Shown: positions 28,915 to 36,792, counted from the stretch's first letter. The stretch: 37,162 nt of DNA from Meiothermus luteus (GCF_003574085.1 NZ_QWKZ01000017.1:1-37162); one strand, 5' to 3'. Numbers and translations: made by a program. The notes: generated by a model not told the origin, from the sequence alone.

Positions 28915-29205
28915 TCAGGCCTTGGAAGTATCCCCGGGTTCTGGGATTGCCCCGTAGGTCTCCTCGTAGCGCTGGATGTTCTCCGCCAGGCTGCGGAGGA
29001 GGGCCTTGGCGTGCTGGGGGCTGGTAATGATGCGGCTAGTTACCAGGGCCACCACTTGGTTGGGCTGGGTACCCGGTTGCATCAGGGCAAAGTCCAGGTA
29101 AAACTCGTTTTTCTGGTGGGAGAAAATGGCGAAGTTGGCGTATTTCCCCAACGCGGTTTCGCGGTCTATGTCTACACGTAGCTCGGGTACCTGAACGTCG
29201 CTCAC
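28915..29205 (-). CDS. DUF3467-family small protein
   Basis: A 96-residue soluble protein resembling the DUF3467 family. The core is VPELRVDIDRETALGKYANFAIFSHQKNEFYLDFALMQPG, followed by VVALVTSRIITSPQHAKALLRSLAENIQRYEETYG; these two blocks are the family signature. The GTG start at 29205 overlaps the stop of the preceding roadblock gene as GTGA, and AAGGAGG lies just upstream inside that gene, so translation is coupled. The family has no established function that I know of; the coupling to roadblock/LC7 genes is the only clue here and suggests a shared complex or regulation. Structure prediction would test a small beta-sheet fold. Confidence 0.78.
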   Translation of the reverse strand: MSDVQVPELRVDIDRETALGKYANFAIFSHQKNEFYLDFALMQPGTQPNQVVALVTSRIITSPQHAKALLRSLAENIQRYEETYGAIPEPGDTSKA

Positions 29206-29555
29206 TTTAAGGCCTCCTTGAGGCGTGGAACGCTTTTTTTGAGCTGGAAGCGCACCCGGCCCAGGCTTTGCATGGCGTCCATCAGCACCACCAGCAGGTA
29301 TCCACCCTCGAGCGGGACCAGCAAGATTGGCCCCTCGGGGTACTCTACCATGACTTCCTCCACCTCGCCGCGCCCCAGCTCCTGGGAAAGGGCCCGCGCC
29401 GAAGCCAGCGCGGTGGAGGCCGCGCTTCCCAAGAAGTCCAGGTCGGGGGCTTTTTCCGCCCGGGTGCTCTCTACCACAAATCCATCCTCGGCGACCAGCG
29501 CAGAGGCCAGCACCCCTTTGGTTGCTTGAAGCTCGCTCAGCACTTCCTGCACCAT
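29202..29555 (-). CDS. Roadblock/LC7-domain protein (second of two)
   Basis: A 117-residue protein made of one roadblock/LC7 domain, the fold of MglB and dynein light chains that usually binds small GTPases. Visible pattern: helix 1 EVLSELQATKGVLASALVAEDGFVVES, then the helix SAASTALASARALSQELGRGEVEEVMVEY and strand GPILLVPLEGGYLLVVLMD, with helix FQLKKSVPRLKEAL at the end. It lies 8 bases after the first roadblock gene and overlaps the DUF3467 gene by four bases. No Ras-like GTPase such as MglA is present within the window, so partner and role are unknown. The start ATG has TAGGAAA a short way upstream. Confidence 0.85.
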   Translation of the reverse strand: MVQEVLSELQATKGVLASALVAEDGFVVESTRAEKAPDLDFLGSAASTALASARALSQELGRGEVEEVMVEYPEGPILLVPLEGGYLLVVLMDAMQSLGRVRFQLKKSVPRLKEALK

Positions 29556-29563
29556 AGCTTTTC

Positions 29564-29896
29564 CTAGAGGCTTTGGGCCAGCCGCAGGGCCAGCTTAGAG
29601 AGTTCCTGCCCGATGCTCTTGCGGTCGCTGCCCTTCTCCACGACCACCCCCAGGCAGTAGCCGTTAAACACCACCACCAGCACCTCGCGCTGCTCGGTGG
29701 CCAGGGTAAAGCGGCGCAGCTCGCCCCCTAGGTGCCGGGTGAGGGTTCGGCTGGCCCGGGCCAGGGCCGCCAGCTCCGCGGCCAGCAGCTCGGGTTCAGG
29801 GGTTGTCTTGCCCGTGCTTTCTATCACCAGGCCGTCCTGGCTGGCCAGCACCGCCTGCCGTACCCCGGCTATAGAAAGGCTCTCGAGCATCCTCAT
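29564..29896 (-). CDS. Roadblock/LC7-domain protein (first of two)
   Basis: A 110-residue single-domain roadblock/LC7 protein, diverged from its neighbour. The pattern is similar: helix 1 MLESLSIAGVRQAVLASQDGLVIES, helix LLAAELAALARASRTLTRHLGG, strands LRRFTLATEQREVLVVVFNGYCLGVVVE, and the helix KSIGQELSKLALRLAQSL. ATG 29896 is chosen because GGAG lies 6 bases before it; ATG 29890 is a possible alternative. It is downstream of recR by 97 bases on the same strand. With its neighbour it could form a heterodimer, the usual state of paired roadblock proteins. No GTPase gene adjoins. Function unknown. Confidence 0.8.
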   Translation of the reverse strand: MRMLESLSIAGVRQAVLASQDGLVIESTGKTTPEPELLAAELAALARASRTLTRHLGGELRRFTLATEQREVLVVVFNGYCLGVVVEKGSDRKSIGQELSKLALRLAQSL

Positions 29897-32187: not shown

Positions 32188-32204
32188 GATAAACGAAGTT
32201 TATC
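32188..32204. promoter_or_regulatory. Perfect palindrome upstream of the MFS transporter gene
   Basis: GATAAAC (32188-32194) and GTTTATC (32198-32204) are perfect 7-bp arms around a 3-base centre. The site is in the 39-base gap before the MFS gene and touches the stop codon of the preceding gene. AT-rich arms and no T tract argue against a simple terminator and for an operator. Confidence 0.5.
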
Positions 32205-33990
32205 AGTGCCTTGGTGGGATGCTGGTTAGGCTGTAGGCTACCCGGGCCCCCTCGCGGGCCAGCACCAGCCCTCCTTCGGGCACCACCCAGACCAGCAGGT
32301 CGCTCAGCTTGCGGGGCACGAGGCCGGTGGAGGAGACGTAGATCGCGCCATTCTGGTAACGCAAGGAGAGCACGGTGCTGCCGGCTTTGATGGTGCTGGG
32401 GGCCTCGCTTACGGTGGTAGAGCCTACCCCCTGGCCTAGGGTGTCGCGCGAGGGTGGGTTGAAGCCCAGCCACTCAGAGAGTTCAACGTAGAGCACCTGG
32501 GCGTAGTCTTCCAGGCCCAGCCCCTGGGCCACCTCGCTCAGGTAGGCGGCCCAGCTCGGGTGACGTTGGATGCGGCTACGGACCACCTCGAGCCCCTTGC
32601 GGGCGAATTCCTGCAGGTTGTCTATGGGGGCTTCGGCGTACTTGCTGGCCGATTCAGGCTGGAAAGCGGCGTAGTTAATCGGGCCCTTGAACCGGGCCGA
32701 GAGGGCCCTGAGCAGGCGCAAGTAGGCGTAGTGGTTTTCTGGCCACATTATATGGGCCAGCACCCGACCCTCGGCCAGCAGGCTGGAAAGGGTGGCCGCT
32801 TCCCGGGGCTCGAGCCAGAGGTGAAGGTAGTTCTGGTAGCGCACCCCGTGCATCTCTGCGTCGGGTAGGGTGAGGCTGAAAGCGGCATTCTCCTCCAGGG
32901 TGCGCTCCTGCCCTTCCACGCTGAGGGCAAAGACCGGGCCTGCTTGGGAGATGGCCACCTGGTGCCCACCCAGGGTAAAACGCAAGGGCATCAAGCGAAG
33001 GTTGAGGGCCTTGGTCTCCGGGGGAACCTCAAAGAGGGCGTAGGCGGGGTTGGGGCTGCCCAAGATTTTTTGGGGGAGCTGCGGCCAGCTTGCCTCGCCT
33101 CGAGGGCTAGGAAGATAACGGGAAAGCAGGGTGGAAAGCTGCTCAATGGCGGCTGAGAAGCGGGCCCGGTCCTCCTCCATGACCAGAGCCAGCCTGCGCT
33201 CCTCCGCGGCCGCGGCCTGAAGCCGTTCCTCCAAGCTCTGAATCTCCGCCAGGCTTAGCCTTTGCCGATGGGCTTCCTCCAGAGCCCTGCGCAGGCTTTC
33301 TAGGCTGGGCCCGCGAAGAGGGGTTTTCAAAGCACCCTCGCTTTCCAGCACCCTGCGGGCAAAGCGGCGTAGGTAGGGTACCGTCTCCTCCGGGGGGAGC
33401 CGGAGCCTTTCAGCGATGGAGAAGGCCTCACGGAAAAGCTCCAATAGGAGGTTCTGTGCGGTGGAGAGGTCGTCCAGGCGCACCAGGGGGTCGGAGACGC
33501 TCGGGATGGGGTGGGCTAGGGTAAACCGGGAGAGGTTGTAGTCTTGCGTGAAAAGGGGGCTTTTAGCGTAGGCCTCGAGGTTTTGCAGAATTGCGTAGGC
33601 CAGCCTGAGCTCGTCGCGCTTGCCTTGGTTGAGGGTTTTGGCTACCCGGGCCAGCTCACGCTCCAGCCGCGCCCAGTACACCGCCTCGGCCAGCTTTTCC
33701 AGGGTCTGGTGCTCGGGGTCTGGTGGGCTGGGCTCCTCTTCCACGAAGATGGCCCCCAGGTCGGAGGAGGGGCCCTCTTCTACGGTGGTTTTGTAGCCTG
33801 GGCGGTGGGCCTTGAAGCGCGCGTCTATATCCCGGAACTTCTTGGCCAGGGGGCCGGGTAGATTAGCCTGGATCAGGGCCTGGCGCAACCGGGTTAGGCC
33901 GGCCATCCCGCCTTTGGGTTCCTGACCGGCCACCAGATCGTCCACCTTGTACTCGTAGAGCTCGAGTAATTCAACCAAGCCCGGCTTCAT
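32203..33990 (-). CDS. Unknown 595-residue protein divergent from PP2C and kinase genes
   Basis: I do not recognise this family. The protein has no signal peptide and no membrane segment, so it is probably cytoplasmic. Residues 1-65 are helical and basic in part. A flexible acidic and proline-rich linker (about 66-95) contains a double threonine (KTTVEEG). A mostly helical region follows, with a likely coiled coil at about 229-290 rich in Glu, Leu, Arg and Ala. The C-terminal 300 residues are mixed alpha/beta, with strands near the end (GSTVLSLRYQNGAIYVSSTG, DLLVWVVPEGGLVLA). Its ATG has no Shine-Dalgarno and follows TATAAT by 9 bases. It shares a 22-bp gap with the PP2C gene, so it may belong to the same signalling system. 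Confidence 0.8.
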   Translation of the reverse strand: MKPGLVELLELYEYKVDDLVAGQEPKGGMAGLTRLRQALIQANLPGPLAKKFRDIDARFKAHRPGYKTTVEEGPSSDLGAIFVEEEPSPPDPEHQTLEKLAEAVYWARLERELARVAKTLNQGKRDELRLAYAILQNLEAYAKSPLFTQDYNLSRFTLAHPIPSVSDPLVRLDDLSTAQNLLLELFREAFSIAERLRLPPEETVPYLRRFARRVLESEGALKTPLRGPSLESLRRALEEAHRQRLSLAEIQSLEERLQAAAAEERRLALVMEEDRARFSAAIEQLSTLLSRYLPSPRGEASWPQLPQKILGSPNPAYALFEVPPETKALNLRLMPLRFTLGGHQVAISQAGPVFALSVEGQERTLEENAAFSLTLPDAEMHGVRYQNYLHLWLEPREAATLSSLLAEGRVLAHIMWPENHYAYLRLLRALSARFKGPINYAAFQPESASKYAEAPIDNLQEFARKGLEVVRSRIQRHPSWAAYLSEVAQGLGLEDYAQVLYVELSEWLGFNPPSRDTLGQGVGSTTVSEAPSTIKAGSTVLSLRYQNGAIYVSSTGLVPRKLSDLLVWVVPEGGLVLAREGARVAYSLTSIPPRH

Positions 33991-33998
33991 TCAGGGGG

Positions 33999-34005
33999 TA
34001 TTATA
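33999..34005. promoter_or_regulatory. Overlapping divergent -10 boxes in a 22-bp gap
   Basis: On the + strand TATTAT (33999-34004) ends 8 bases before the PP2C ATG. On the - strand TATAAT (34005-34000) ends 9 bases before the ATG of the 595-residue protein. One seven-base AT element can thus serve both directions. The -35 regions would lie inside the opposite coding regions and are weak. Confidence 0.5.
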
Positions 34006-34012
34006 AGGTGTC

Positions 34013-34771
34013 ATGCGGCTGGCCCGGCTGGAAATTGCCACAGAATCCAACATCGGTCGTCGTCGTCGGAACAACGAGGACTTCCACCGGGTTGCGGTTC
34101 ACCCTACCCCTGCGGGCCACCTGGTCTTGCTGGCGGTGGCCGATGGCATGGGCGGGGCCGAGGCTGGGGAGCTGGCCAGCAAGCTGGCCATTGAAGGGGT
34201 CAGCGTGGCCGCTAAGTCCTACGCAGAGCACACCGCCACCGGGAGGCCTGGGATAGGGCTCCCGCTGGTGATGGACCGGGCCTTCAAGCTGGCCCAGCGA
34301 CGCATCCTGCAGGAGGGGGAACGGGTGCCCTCCCGCAAGGGCATGGGCACCACCCTCACCGCGGTGTTGCTCACCGAGTGGAACCGGCAGGCGGTGGTGG
34401 GGCACGTGGGGGATACCCGGGCTTACCGGTACTCCTCGGGCCGCTGGACGTTGCTCACCCAGGACCACTCCTGGGTGGCCCAGCAGGTGCGTCAAGGGGT
34501 GCTTAGCCCAGACCAGGCTGAGGACCATCCTTGGAAGCACATGCTGACCCAGGCCCTGGGTTTGGCCGAGGTGCGCTACGACATATTTCCGGTCAGCTTT
34601 GCTCCGGGGGAGGTATTGGTGCTGGCCACCGATGGCCTGTACGGCCTGGTGCCCCCCGAGGAGTGGACGCTGGGCAACGATCTGCAGTCCTCCTTGGAGA
34701 ACTGGGTAGGTAAGGCCCTGATGCGCGGGGGAACCGACAACATCACGGTGGTTGCAGCGAGGTTCAGATGA
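34013..34771 (+). CDS. PP2C-family serine/threonine protein phosphatase
   Basis: Metal-dependent phosphatase that removes phosphate from Ser/Thr, here probably the partner of the kinase encoded next. The 252-residue protein keeps all the metal-binding motifs: NNEDF (Asp23), VADGMGGAEAGE (Asp44), HVGDTRAYRY (Asp134), LATDGLY (Asp207) and TDNITVV (Asp242). It resembles bacterial PrpC/PstP enzymes but has no membrane segment. It has AAGGTG immediately before the ATG, and a -10 box 8 bases before it. The stop overlaps the kinase start as ATGA, the usual coupled arrangement of bacterial phosphatase-kinase pairs. The family call is firm; targets are not shown. Confidence 0.94.
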   Translation: MRLARLEIATESNIGRRRRNNEDFHRVAVHPTPAGHLVLLAVADGMGGAEAGELASKLAIEGVSVAAKSYAEHTATGRPGIGLPLVMDRAFKLAQRRILQEGERVPSRKGMGTTLTAVLLTEWNRQAVVGHVGDTRAYRYSSGRWTLLTQDHSWVAQQVRQGVLSPDQAEDHPWKHMLTQALGLAEVRYDIFPVSFAPGEVLVLATDGLYGLVPPEEWTLGNDLQSSLENWVGKALMRGGTDNITVVAARFR

Positions 34772-36792
34772 GCTACCTGATTGCCCTTCTGTTGGTAGGG
34801 ATTACCACGGCGCTTTTGCTGCGCGCCGGTTTGAGCTGGGCCATGCTGCTTCTGTTGGGGCTGGTGCTGGGAGGGGTAGCGGTGCTGGGGGCGACGCCCT
34901 GGGTGCTGGCGATCCCCCTGCTGTTGGGCCTCGGGGCGATGTGGCTGCCCCGCTCCGCTTGGGTTTCCTACAGGCCTCGCCCGAAGCCCAGCAAAAAACC
35001 CGCTAAGGCCAAGGCCAGCCCCAAGGTCCCTTTGGGCCACAGCGTGACCGGCTTGGAGGCCCTCTACGAGATTCAGGAGAAGGTGGGCATTGGGGGCATG
35101 GCCACGGTATACAAGGCCCGCAGCAAGAAGGACGGCCGGTTGGTGGCCCTCAAAATTCCCCAGGAGAAGTATGTGGGCGACCCCCGGTTTGTGCGCCGCT
35201 TCCATCGTGAGGCCGAGCTTCTGGCCCGCCTGGACCACCCCAATATCGTCAAGGTTTACGACCACGGCAACCAAGGGGACACCCACTACATCGCCATGGA
35301 GTTTCTGGAAGGCGAAGGCTTGGACCGCCTCATTGAGGGGCGGCGCCTGGGTATCAGGAGCCTGGTGGAGGTGATGATCCGGGTGGCCGAGGCCCTGCAG
35401 CACATCCACGCCCAGGGCATCATTCACCGCGACATCAAGCCGGGCAACATCATGGTGCTTAGGAACGCGGTCCGGGAGGATGGCAGCGTAGACCCTCGAG
35501 GTGTGCGCCTGATGGATTTCGGCATCGCCGCGGGAAAGGTCCTCACCCGGCTGACCATTACCGGGGCCCGCATTGGAACCCCGGTTTACATGAGCCCTGA
35601 ACAGGCTAAAGGTCAGCGCATTGACCATAAGTCCGATATCTACAGCCTGGGGGTGGTCTTTTACGAGGCCCTCTGCGGCCAGCCGCCTTTCCAGGGGGCC
35701 TACGAGGCGGTTATTCACCAGCAGATCACCCAGATGCCGCCCCCGCCCAAGCAGATCAACCCCGAGGTCCCCCAGGTCCTCTCCGATCTGGTCTACCGGA
35801 TGCTGGAAAAAGACCCGGAGAAAAGACCGGGCCTGGAGGCCGTCCTGGATGTGCTGCGGGGTAAATGGCAGGAGGACCCTGGCCTGGTGGCCCCGGTATA
35901 CCTGGCCCTGGCGGTGGAGACCAAGAAGGGTACCCTGCGTTTGATGGACCCCAACGGTACCCTGGTGCGGATGTGGAGCGGCGTGGGGAGCGGGCGGGGG
36001 ATGTTCCCCTCCCCACCCTTGTCGGTGGCGGTGGACTCGGAGGGGGGCTTTTGGATTAGCCTTTTTGAGTATGGGGGCGGGGCTACCCGGCTGGTGCATC
36101 GCTTTGATGTGGAAGGGGAGATCACCCAGTCCATTGGGCCGTACGGCATGAAGCTGGGGGAGCTTCTGTACCCCATCTCCTTGGCCCCCTTGCCGGATGG
36201 CCTTTTGGTTTTGGATGGGGAGGCCTGCACCATCACCCGCTTTGACCGGGAGGGCAGGCCGGTGGCCCGTTTCGGCGGCGCGGGCCAGGGCCGCGGGACC
36301 TTTGAGTCCCCCCGCGTGATTCTGGCCAGCTCGAGCCACATCTTTGTTCTAGACTACGGAAACCGCCAGGTGCAGCGCTTTTCCTTGGATGGGCAGTACA
36401 TCTCGCGCTACGCCTTCCGCAAAAGCCGCGAGTCCCAGGAGCTGCGGGTGCTGGGCGGGCTTGGCCTGACCCCTGATGAACAGCTTCTCATTTACGACGC
36501 CGACAGCCAGAAGGTTCGCCGGCTCTCGTTGGAGGGGGAAGTGCTGCTCTCGCTGCCCCTGCCCGTGGCCGAGGGGGAGGACCCTGCCAGCCAGGTGGAG
36601 ATGGTGGTGCTGGGGGATGTGCTCTACGCCATCCGGCGGGGGGGCAGCAAGATACACCGGGTCAGGATGAACGGCCAGAGCCTTCCCAGCCTCGAGGTCT
36701 ACGCCCCCTTGCGCGGCATCGCTTTGTGGCACAACGTCCTGCTGGCCGGTCGGAATGCCCGCGCCGGCCTGTCGGCCCAGGCCTCGAGCTAA
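34768..36792 (+). CDS. Membrane-anchored Ser/Thr protein kinase with C-terminal beta-propeller (NHL-like)
   Basis: Hanks-type kinase of 674 residues. Two or three hydrophobic segments lie at the N-terminus (about 2-40 and 44-60), followed by a basic proline-rich linker (69-90). The kinase domain (about 98-365) has the glycine loop VGIGGMATVYKA, Lys129 in VALKI, Glu148 in REAELLARL, HRDIKPGN (Asp222, Asn227), DFG (250-252) and GTPVYMSPEQ in the activation segment. Residues 375-665 form beta-propeller-like repeats such as GEITQSIGPYGMKLGELLYPISLAPLPDGLLVLD and RPVARFGGAGQGRGTFESPRVILA. No membrane helix separates kinase and propeller, so both should be on the same, cytoplasmic side. It is translated from an overlap with the PP2C gene. 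Confidence 0.9.
   Translation: MSYLIALLLVGITTALLLRAGLSWAMLLLLGLVLGGVAVLGATPWVLAIPLLLGLGAMWLPRSAWVSYRPRPKPSKKPAKAKASPKVPLGHSVTGLEALYEIQEKVGIGGMATVYKARSKKDGRLVALKIPQEKYVGDPRFVRRFHREAELLARLDHPNIVKVYDHGNQGDTHYIAMEFLEGEGLDRLIEGRRLGIRSLVEVMIRVAEALQHIHAQGIIHRDIKPGNIMVLRNAVREDGSVDPRGVRLMDFGIAAGKVLTRLTITGARIGTPVYMSPEQAKGQRIDHKSDIYSLGVVFYEALCGQPPFQGAYEAVIHQQITQMPPPPKQINPEVPQVLSDLVYRMLEKDPEKRPGLEAVLDVLRGKWQEDPGLVAPVYLALAVETKKGTLRLMDPNGTLVRMWSGVGSGRGMFPSPPLSVAVDSEGGFWISLFEYGGGATRLVHRFDVEGEITQSIGPYGMKLGELLYPISLAPLPDGLLVLDGEACTITRFDREGRPVARFGGAGQGRGTFESPRVILASSSHIFVLDYGNRQVQRFSLDGQYISRYAFRKSRESQELRVLGGLGLTPDEQLLIYDADSQKVRRLSLEGEVLLSLPLPVAEGEDPASQVEMVVLGDVLYAIRRGGSKIHRVRMNGQSLPSLEVYAPLRGIALWHNVLLAGRNARAGLSAQASS

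Follow-up and report, generated by a model that had tools for sequence, protein, structure and literature searches.

In a 37,162-nucleotide stretch of the Meiothermus luteus genome (NZ_QWKZ01000017.1:1-37162, hereafter the window), a protein of unassigned family, which we call X, is encoded divergently from a PP2C-type Ser/Thr phosphatase (PP2C-A) and a membrane Ser/Thr kinase with a C-terminal β-propeller. The linkage of X to this PP2C-kinase switch is well supported, because its genomic place, its promoter and its co-loss with PP2C-A agree. On balance, and by a little, we favour the view that a PP2C-kinase switch found across the phylum has X as its third, cytoplasmic part, which would act as a substrate or adaptor dependent on PP2C-A, a role that we infer.

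The three genes, all intact, form a compact locus. X, a cytoplasmic protein of 595 residues, is an intact open frame on the minus strand (32203-33990), and the plus strand carries PP2C-A, an Stp1/IreP-like phosphatase of 252 residues (34013-34771), followed by the kinase of 674 residues (34768-36792). The initial annotation had described the phosphatase and kinase as translationally coupled, which their ATGA overlap confirms, and had placed only 22 bp between the opposite starts of X and PP2C-A, which is exactly the length of the intergenic region (33991-34012); counted from first base to first base, the start codons are separated by 23 bp. Within this gap sits TATTATAA (33999-34006), a near-symmetric -10 element with a conserved core, common to both directions. 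It occurs once in the window, against 0.05 copies expected, and that copy lies between the two starts. The core is invariant in the 14 Meiothermus compared and is also found in Calidithermus (24-bp spacer) and in f4 (39-42 bp), the sister family of the Thermaceae (f1) in our phylum sample of 111 genomes from families f1-f5. Thermus spacers (23-26 bp) mostly carry the related TATACAAT or TATAAT, and in genus g2 the X-PP2C spacer is longer and the arrangement different. A promoter element in common, as originally suggested, is thus borne out by a motif unique in the window and conserved at its core across genera.

This arrangement resembles the bidirectional promoters described in E. coli by Warman, Grainger and colleagues, in which the two directions have a symmetric -10 in common and start sites are usually separated by 10, 18 or 23 bp (PMC12825309). 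Both the symmetric -10 and a usual spacing are found here, with the leaderless starts predicted from the DNA alone: in the window, whichever way TATTATAA is read, 5-9 nt separate it from either start codon, a distance that fits leaderless transcripts. The data therefore fit, and we read TATTATAA as, a putative bidirectional promoter with two leaderless transcripts.

X and its arrangement are widespread. X is present in 96 of the 111 genomes and in 49 of 50 Thermaceae (45-92% identity), where the genome without it is an 84%-complete assembly; a degenerate-pattern scan of named genomes, with patterns that are clade-specific, matched X only in Thermaceae, with a Meiothermus MAG as the nearest named relative (92% protein identity). 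The initial annotation had asked whether X always adjoins PP2C and kinase genes in this family, and the divergent X-PP2C-kinase order holds in all 49 Thermaceae genomes with X. It also occurs in all seven f4 genomes with X (genera g12 and g13) and in two f2 genomes, in which the remaining neighbours differ, and was not seen in the examined f3 and f5 loci or in f2 genus g7. The proposal that the three genes belong together is therefore upheld by linkage in the Thermaceae and by co-loss, and qualified by a neighbourhood that is mixed outside the Thermaceae, with the linkage absent in f3 and f5.

Loss of X goes with loss of PP2C-A. We told PP2C-A from its paralogue with an f5 query, which scores at least 333 bits where PP2C-A is present and at most 175 bits against other PP2Cs. 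A profile search with A1, a 38-row alignment of X, found no credible X in genus g14 or in genomes G100, G105, G108, G109 and G110, all of which also lack PP2C-A. Among genomes at least 90% complete, both genes are present in 74 and both absent in seven, with X alone absent in one and PP2C-A alone absent in three (Fisher p = 1.9e-7 by genome, uncorrected for kinship, and 1.6e-4 by genus). G074, the one genome with PP2C-A and no X, has a fragmented assembly; G087, among the three lacking PP2C-A alone, is missing its entire kinase locus. In G100, G105 and G110, X is gone from between retained flanks (the lysK side and a gene labelled 'c7') and PP2C-A has been lost from an unlinked site; in G105 the loss extends to this kinase. 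In g14, of family f4, X and PP2C-A are both missing between an MFS gene and the kinase, which retains intact HRD and DFG motifs with no VAxK match (L118, L119). On a quick tree of the kinase, from whose counts G051, labelled X-present there, was excluded, X changes four times and PP2C-A five times, all four X changes lying in lineages without PP2C-A. The closer tie of X seems to be with the phosphatase, because the kinase usually outlives X and PP2C-A does not.

Loss of PP2C-A is also accompanied by faster change in the kinase. In f5, which may be the Trueperaceae, root-to-tip depth of the kinase is 0.98-2.25 (mean 1.72) without PP2C-A and 0.36-0.83 (mean 0.59) with it, roughly a threefold difference between ranges that do not overlap, and rpoB depth is no different (0.22-0.31, mean 0.258, versus 0.15-0.57, mean 0.259). 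The g14 kinase is likewise deeper (1.51-1.67 versus 0.41-0.81). The rate p value of 1.3e-4 is a guide only, because entries from one lineage are not independent of each other. As HRD and DFG are kept despite the faster change, the kinase is still an enzyme, but one whose constraint has changed. X itself shows a modest rate increase after PP2C-A loss in g29; a candidate reading that X is decaying there, taken from single-sequence scores, was dropped when the profile search found full-length X.

How might such a switch work? One bidirectional promoter would fire two leaderless mRNAs, linking production of X with that of PP2C and kinase. The membrane-anchored kinase would phosphorylate its targets, possibly including X at an RDTLG loop (T517), its cytoplasmic propeller may serve as a sensor or docking part, and PP2C-A would reverse the phosphorylation. 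A number of observations weigh against assigning X this role. Neither sequence nor fold gives a hint of its biochemical function. In f3 and f5 X lies apart from PP2C-kinase, and T517 is missing from the f5 sequences, so this residue is not universal to X. About four losses of X amount to few independent events, and an independent-pairs sign test is too small for significance; moreover, the losses in G100 and G110 may be a single event, because these genomes are sisters on the rpoB tree, and in g14 one deletion could have removed both genes, because X and PP2C-A would adjoin.

Much of this could also be explained if X were an independent housekeeping protein, its adjacency in the Thermaceae reflecting slow change of gene order and the co-losses reflecting general gene loss in odd lineages. 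The block X-MFS-YbaB-RecR-Roadblock-Roadblock-DUF3467 is syntenic as a whole at most loci of f1 and at some of f4, and adjacency alone is therefore weak evidence; in f5, X sits beside lysine-biosynthesis genes, and X is retained in three g29 genomes that lack PP2C-A, both of which count for this explanation as they count against a phosphatase-dependent role. However, the f2 linkage stays even though the other neighbours differ, the intergenic promoter core is conserved, rpoB is not accelerated, and not all genomes in the lineages that lost X are small (G100, 3.2 Mb; G108, 3.3 Mb). We therefore regard an independent housekeeping role as unlikely, if a serious competitor. A further possibility, tentative and to our minds rather improbable as stated, is that X founds a new family with an unmatched fold and is a dedicated PP2C adaptor or regulator whose dose relative to phosphatase and kinase is fixed by the bidirectional leaderless promoter.

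Two more specific proposals place the phosphorylation site within X. In one, which is a particular form of the substrate-or-adaptor reading and overlaps with it in confidence, X is a direct kinase substrate at the R[DE]TLG loop and is reset by PP2C-A. T517 is present in all 32 Thermaceae and f4 sequences, with R[DE]TLG in 30 of them, lies in a loop modelled with low confidence, and is absent in f5, where X is unlinked; if X has a phosphorylation or docking site, T517 is the leading candidate. But the presence of T517 tracks phylogeny and is thus inseparable from linkage, R[DE]TLG is missing from two Calidithermus sequences, and g14, g27, g30 and g31 retain the kinase in the absence of X, which leaves direct phosphorylation at T517 doubtful. 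The other proposal comes from the initial annotation, which likened a Thr-Thr pair in the KTTVEEG motif of X to the phospho-acceptor of GarA. The motif does occur in the X of the window (residues 67-73), inside a predicted disordered acidic linker, and this pair in an acidic linker is the only feature that X has in common with the GarA/OdhI FHA regulators. Unlike them, X has no detectable FHA domain (no PF00498 match in Pfam searches), and among the aligned sequences only some Meiothermus have the pair, which is absent from several other Meiothermus and from Calidithermus, Thermus and the outgroups. The genome's single FHA protein is, furthermore, separate and encoded elsewhere. The likeness did not survive comparison, and a GarA-like role through this motif is very improbable. 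That FHA-domain protein (E = 5.7e-12), on another contig (L138), is a more natural GarA-like candidate.

Phosphatase and kinase each have a full set of catalytic motifs. PP2C-A matches PF13672 (E = 1.6e-14) and has all of the motifs RRNNED, ADGMGG, GDTR, TDGL and GGTDNI; its score against NF033484, the Stp1/IreP equivalog, is 181.4 bits, under the cut-off of 230, and the kinase match to NF033483 likewise falls under the model cut-off. The kinase is of Hanks type (PF00069, E = 9.9e-55; GxGG, VALK, HRDIKPGN and DFG). By hydropathy, its hydrophobic segments lie in residues 1-62 (34768-34953, plus strand), followed by a basic stretch, an arrangement that its relatives share. The kinase domain spans residues 100-360 (35065-35847, plus strand), with HRD and DFG in nearly all relatives, including those in genomes without PP2C-A, and an NHL-like β-propeller is predicted at residues 385-674 (35920-36789, plus strand) from weak NHL, DUF5128 and SGL matches. 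Because the hydrophobic segments are confined to residues 1-62, kinase domain and propeller are both predicted to be cytoplasmic. Relatives of the kinase, most of them full length, are found in all 111 genomes. In the Thermus genome G038 (L089), X is truncated and the kinase apparently frameshifted, perhaps a sequencing artefact, and in G050 a second small kinase gene of 256 residues lies near X (L064:11622-12392).

As in the Stp1/PrpC-PknB/PrkC pairs, translational coupling here joins a small PP2C to a membrane Ser/Thr kinase. The locus differs from those pairs in the extra divergent gene X on a common -10, and its kinase differs from PknB/PrkC in having N-terminal hydrophobic segments and a predicted cytoplasmic propeller rather than external PASTA domains. 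Mycobacterium PknD is a similar combination of kinase and NHL-type propeller, with a membrane span separating the two parts, whereas no hydrophobic segment lies between kinase domain and propeller here. Closest in outline is RqkA (DR_2518) of Deinococcus radiodurans, a member of the same phylum: the available portions of the literature describe it as a γ-radiation-responsive quinoprotein kinase with a propeller (WD40/PQQ-motif) domain, report its activation by pyrroloquinoline quinone (PQQ) and DNA ends, and tie it to DNA repair and cell-division control (PMC11007091, PMC6052341). The RqkA-type order of kinase and C-terminal propeller is found here from the domain layout and weak propeller matches, and the likeness is one of architecture; by analogy, the kinase may work like RqkA in outline. 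Those same portions of the RqkA literature describe no X-like partner, cognate phosphatase or adaptor.

X was initially described as a cytoplasmic protein with a coiled coil that could not be assigned, and all of this holds. Hydropathy indicates a soluble protein, with no hydrophobic segment (best 19-residue window 0.97). Sequence searches against Pfam, NCBIfam, PADLOC, PHROG and the PDB, of which Pfam and the PDB were also searched with alignment A1, returned nothing meaningful, and FHA, defence-system and phage identities were set aside with no match in these family searches; literature searches on X or PP2C-A found nothing. An AlphaFold2 model built on A1 has good local confidence (predicted local distance difference test, pLDDT, 87.7) but a predicted template modelling score of 0.56. 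It predicts, with all coordinates on the minus strand, a helical N-terminal domain (residues 1-64, 33799-33990; LLELYEYKVxDL...GG...LR), in which L11, G28 and L35 are invariant in 38 of 38 A1 sequences; the variable, disordered acidic linker (residues 66-86, 33733-33795, pLDDT below 50), with KTTVEEG at 33772-33792; a coiled-coil helical region containing a single 46-residue helix (residues 247-292, 33115-33252); and two 8-stranded β domains (residues 328-395, 32806-33009, and residues 522-590, 32221-32427) with a helical region between them. The conserved PPSRDTLG loop with T517 (residues 512-519, 32434-32457) has pLDDT below 50 at residues 514-516. The two β domains are possibly repeats, a profile comparison between them giving a weak match (probability 25.7%, single-pair E = 7e-4).

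Structure searches were equally unrevealing about the family of X. Foldseek found nothing convincing in the PDB for the whole model, nor was there a match in a viral fold library, and for β domain 1 alone it found no fold match in the PDB (best E = 0.066, TMq at most 0.31). The top whole-model match, Dbs (E = 7.5e-3), would suggest a DH/PH-like identity, but aligns with a TM score of about 0.1 and a root-mean-square deviation of 22 Å; we rejected it because the separate model of β domain 1 matched nothing.

Other genes recur around the locus. About 2.3 kb downstream of X, two Roadblock/LC7 genes and a DUF3467 gene, assigned by Pfam, occupy 28915-29896 on the minus strand, and the region just upstream of PP2C-kinase in f5 commonly contains Roadblock and DUF3467 genes together with a DsbA-like one (L120, L121, L125-L127, L135-L137). 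Near the switch in f1 and part of f4, and with Roadblock and DUF3467 counterparts beside it in f5, this trio thus forms a second neighbour that recurs. Additionally, a gene of about 120 codons lies closely 3' of X in f2 and part of f3 (L064:10100-10513, L066:7257-7646, L067:9834-10184); in L067 its product weakly matches SAD/SRA, under the cut-off (PF02182, E = 2.9e-4), and also matches a PHROG of unknown function (E = 2e-8).

Finally, X represents a protein family without a known fold and offers a concrete candidate partner for kinase-propeller systems, being conserved and having its clear losses all in phosphatase-less lineages. The locus also provides a compact natural case in which the relative amounts of three signalling proteins may be governed by a single symmetric -10.

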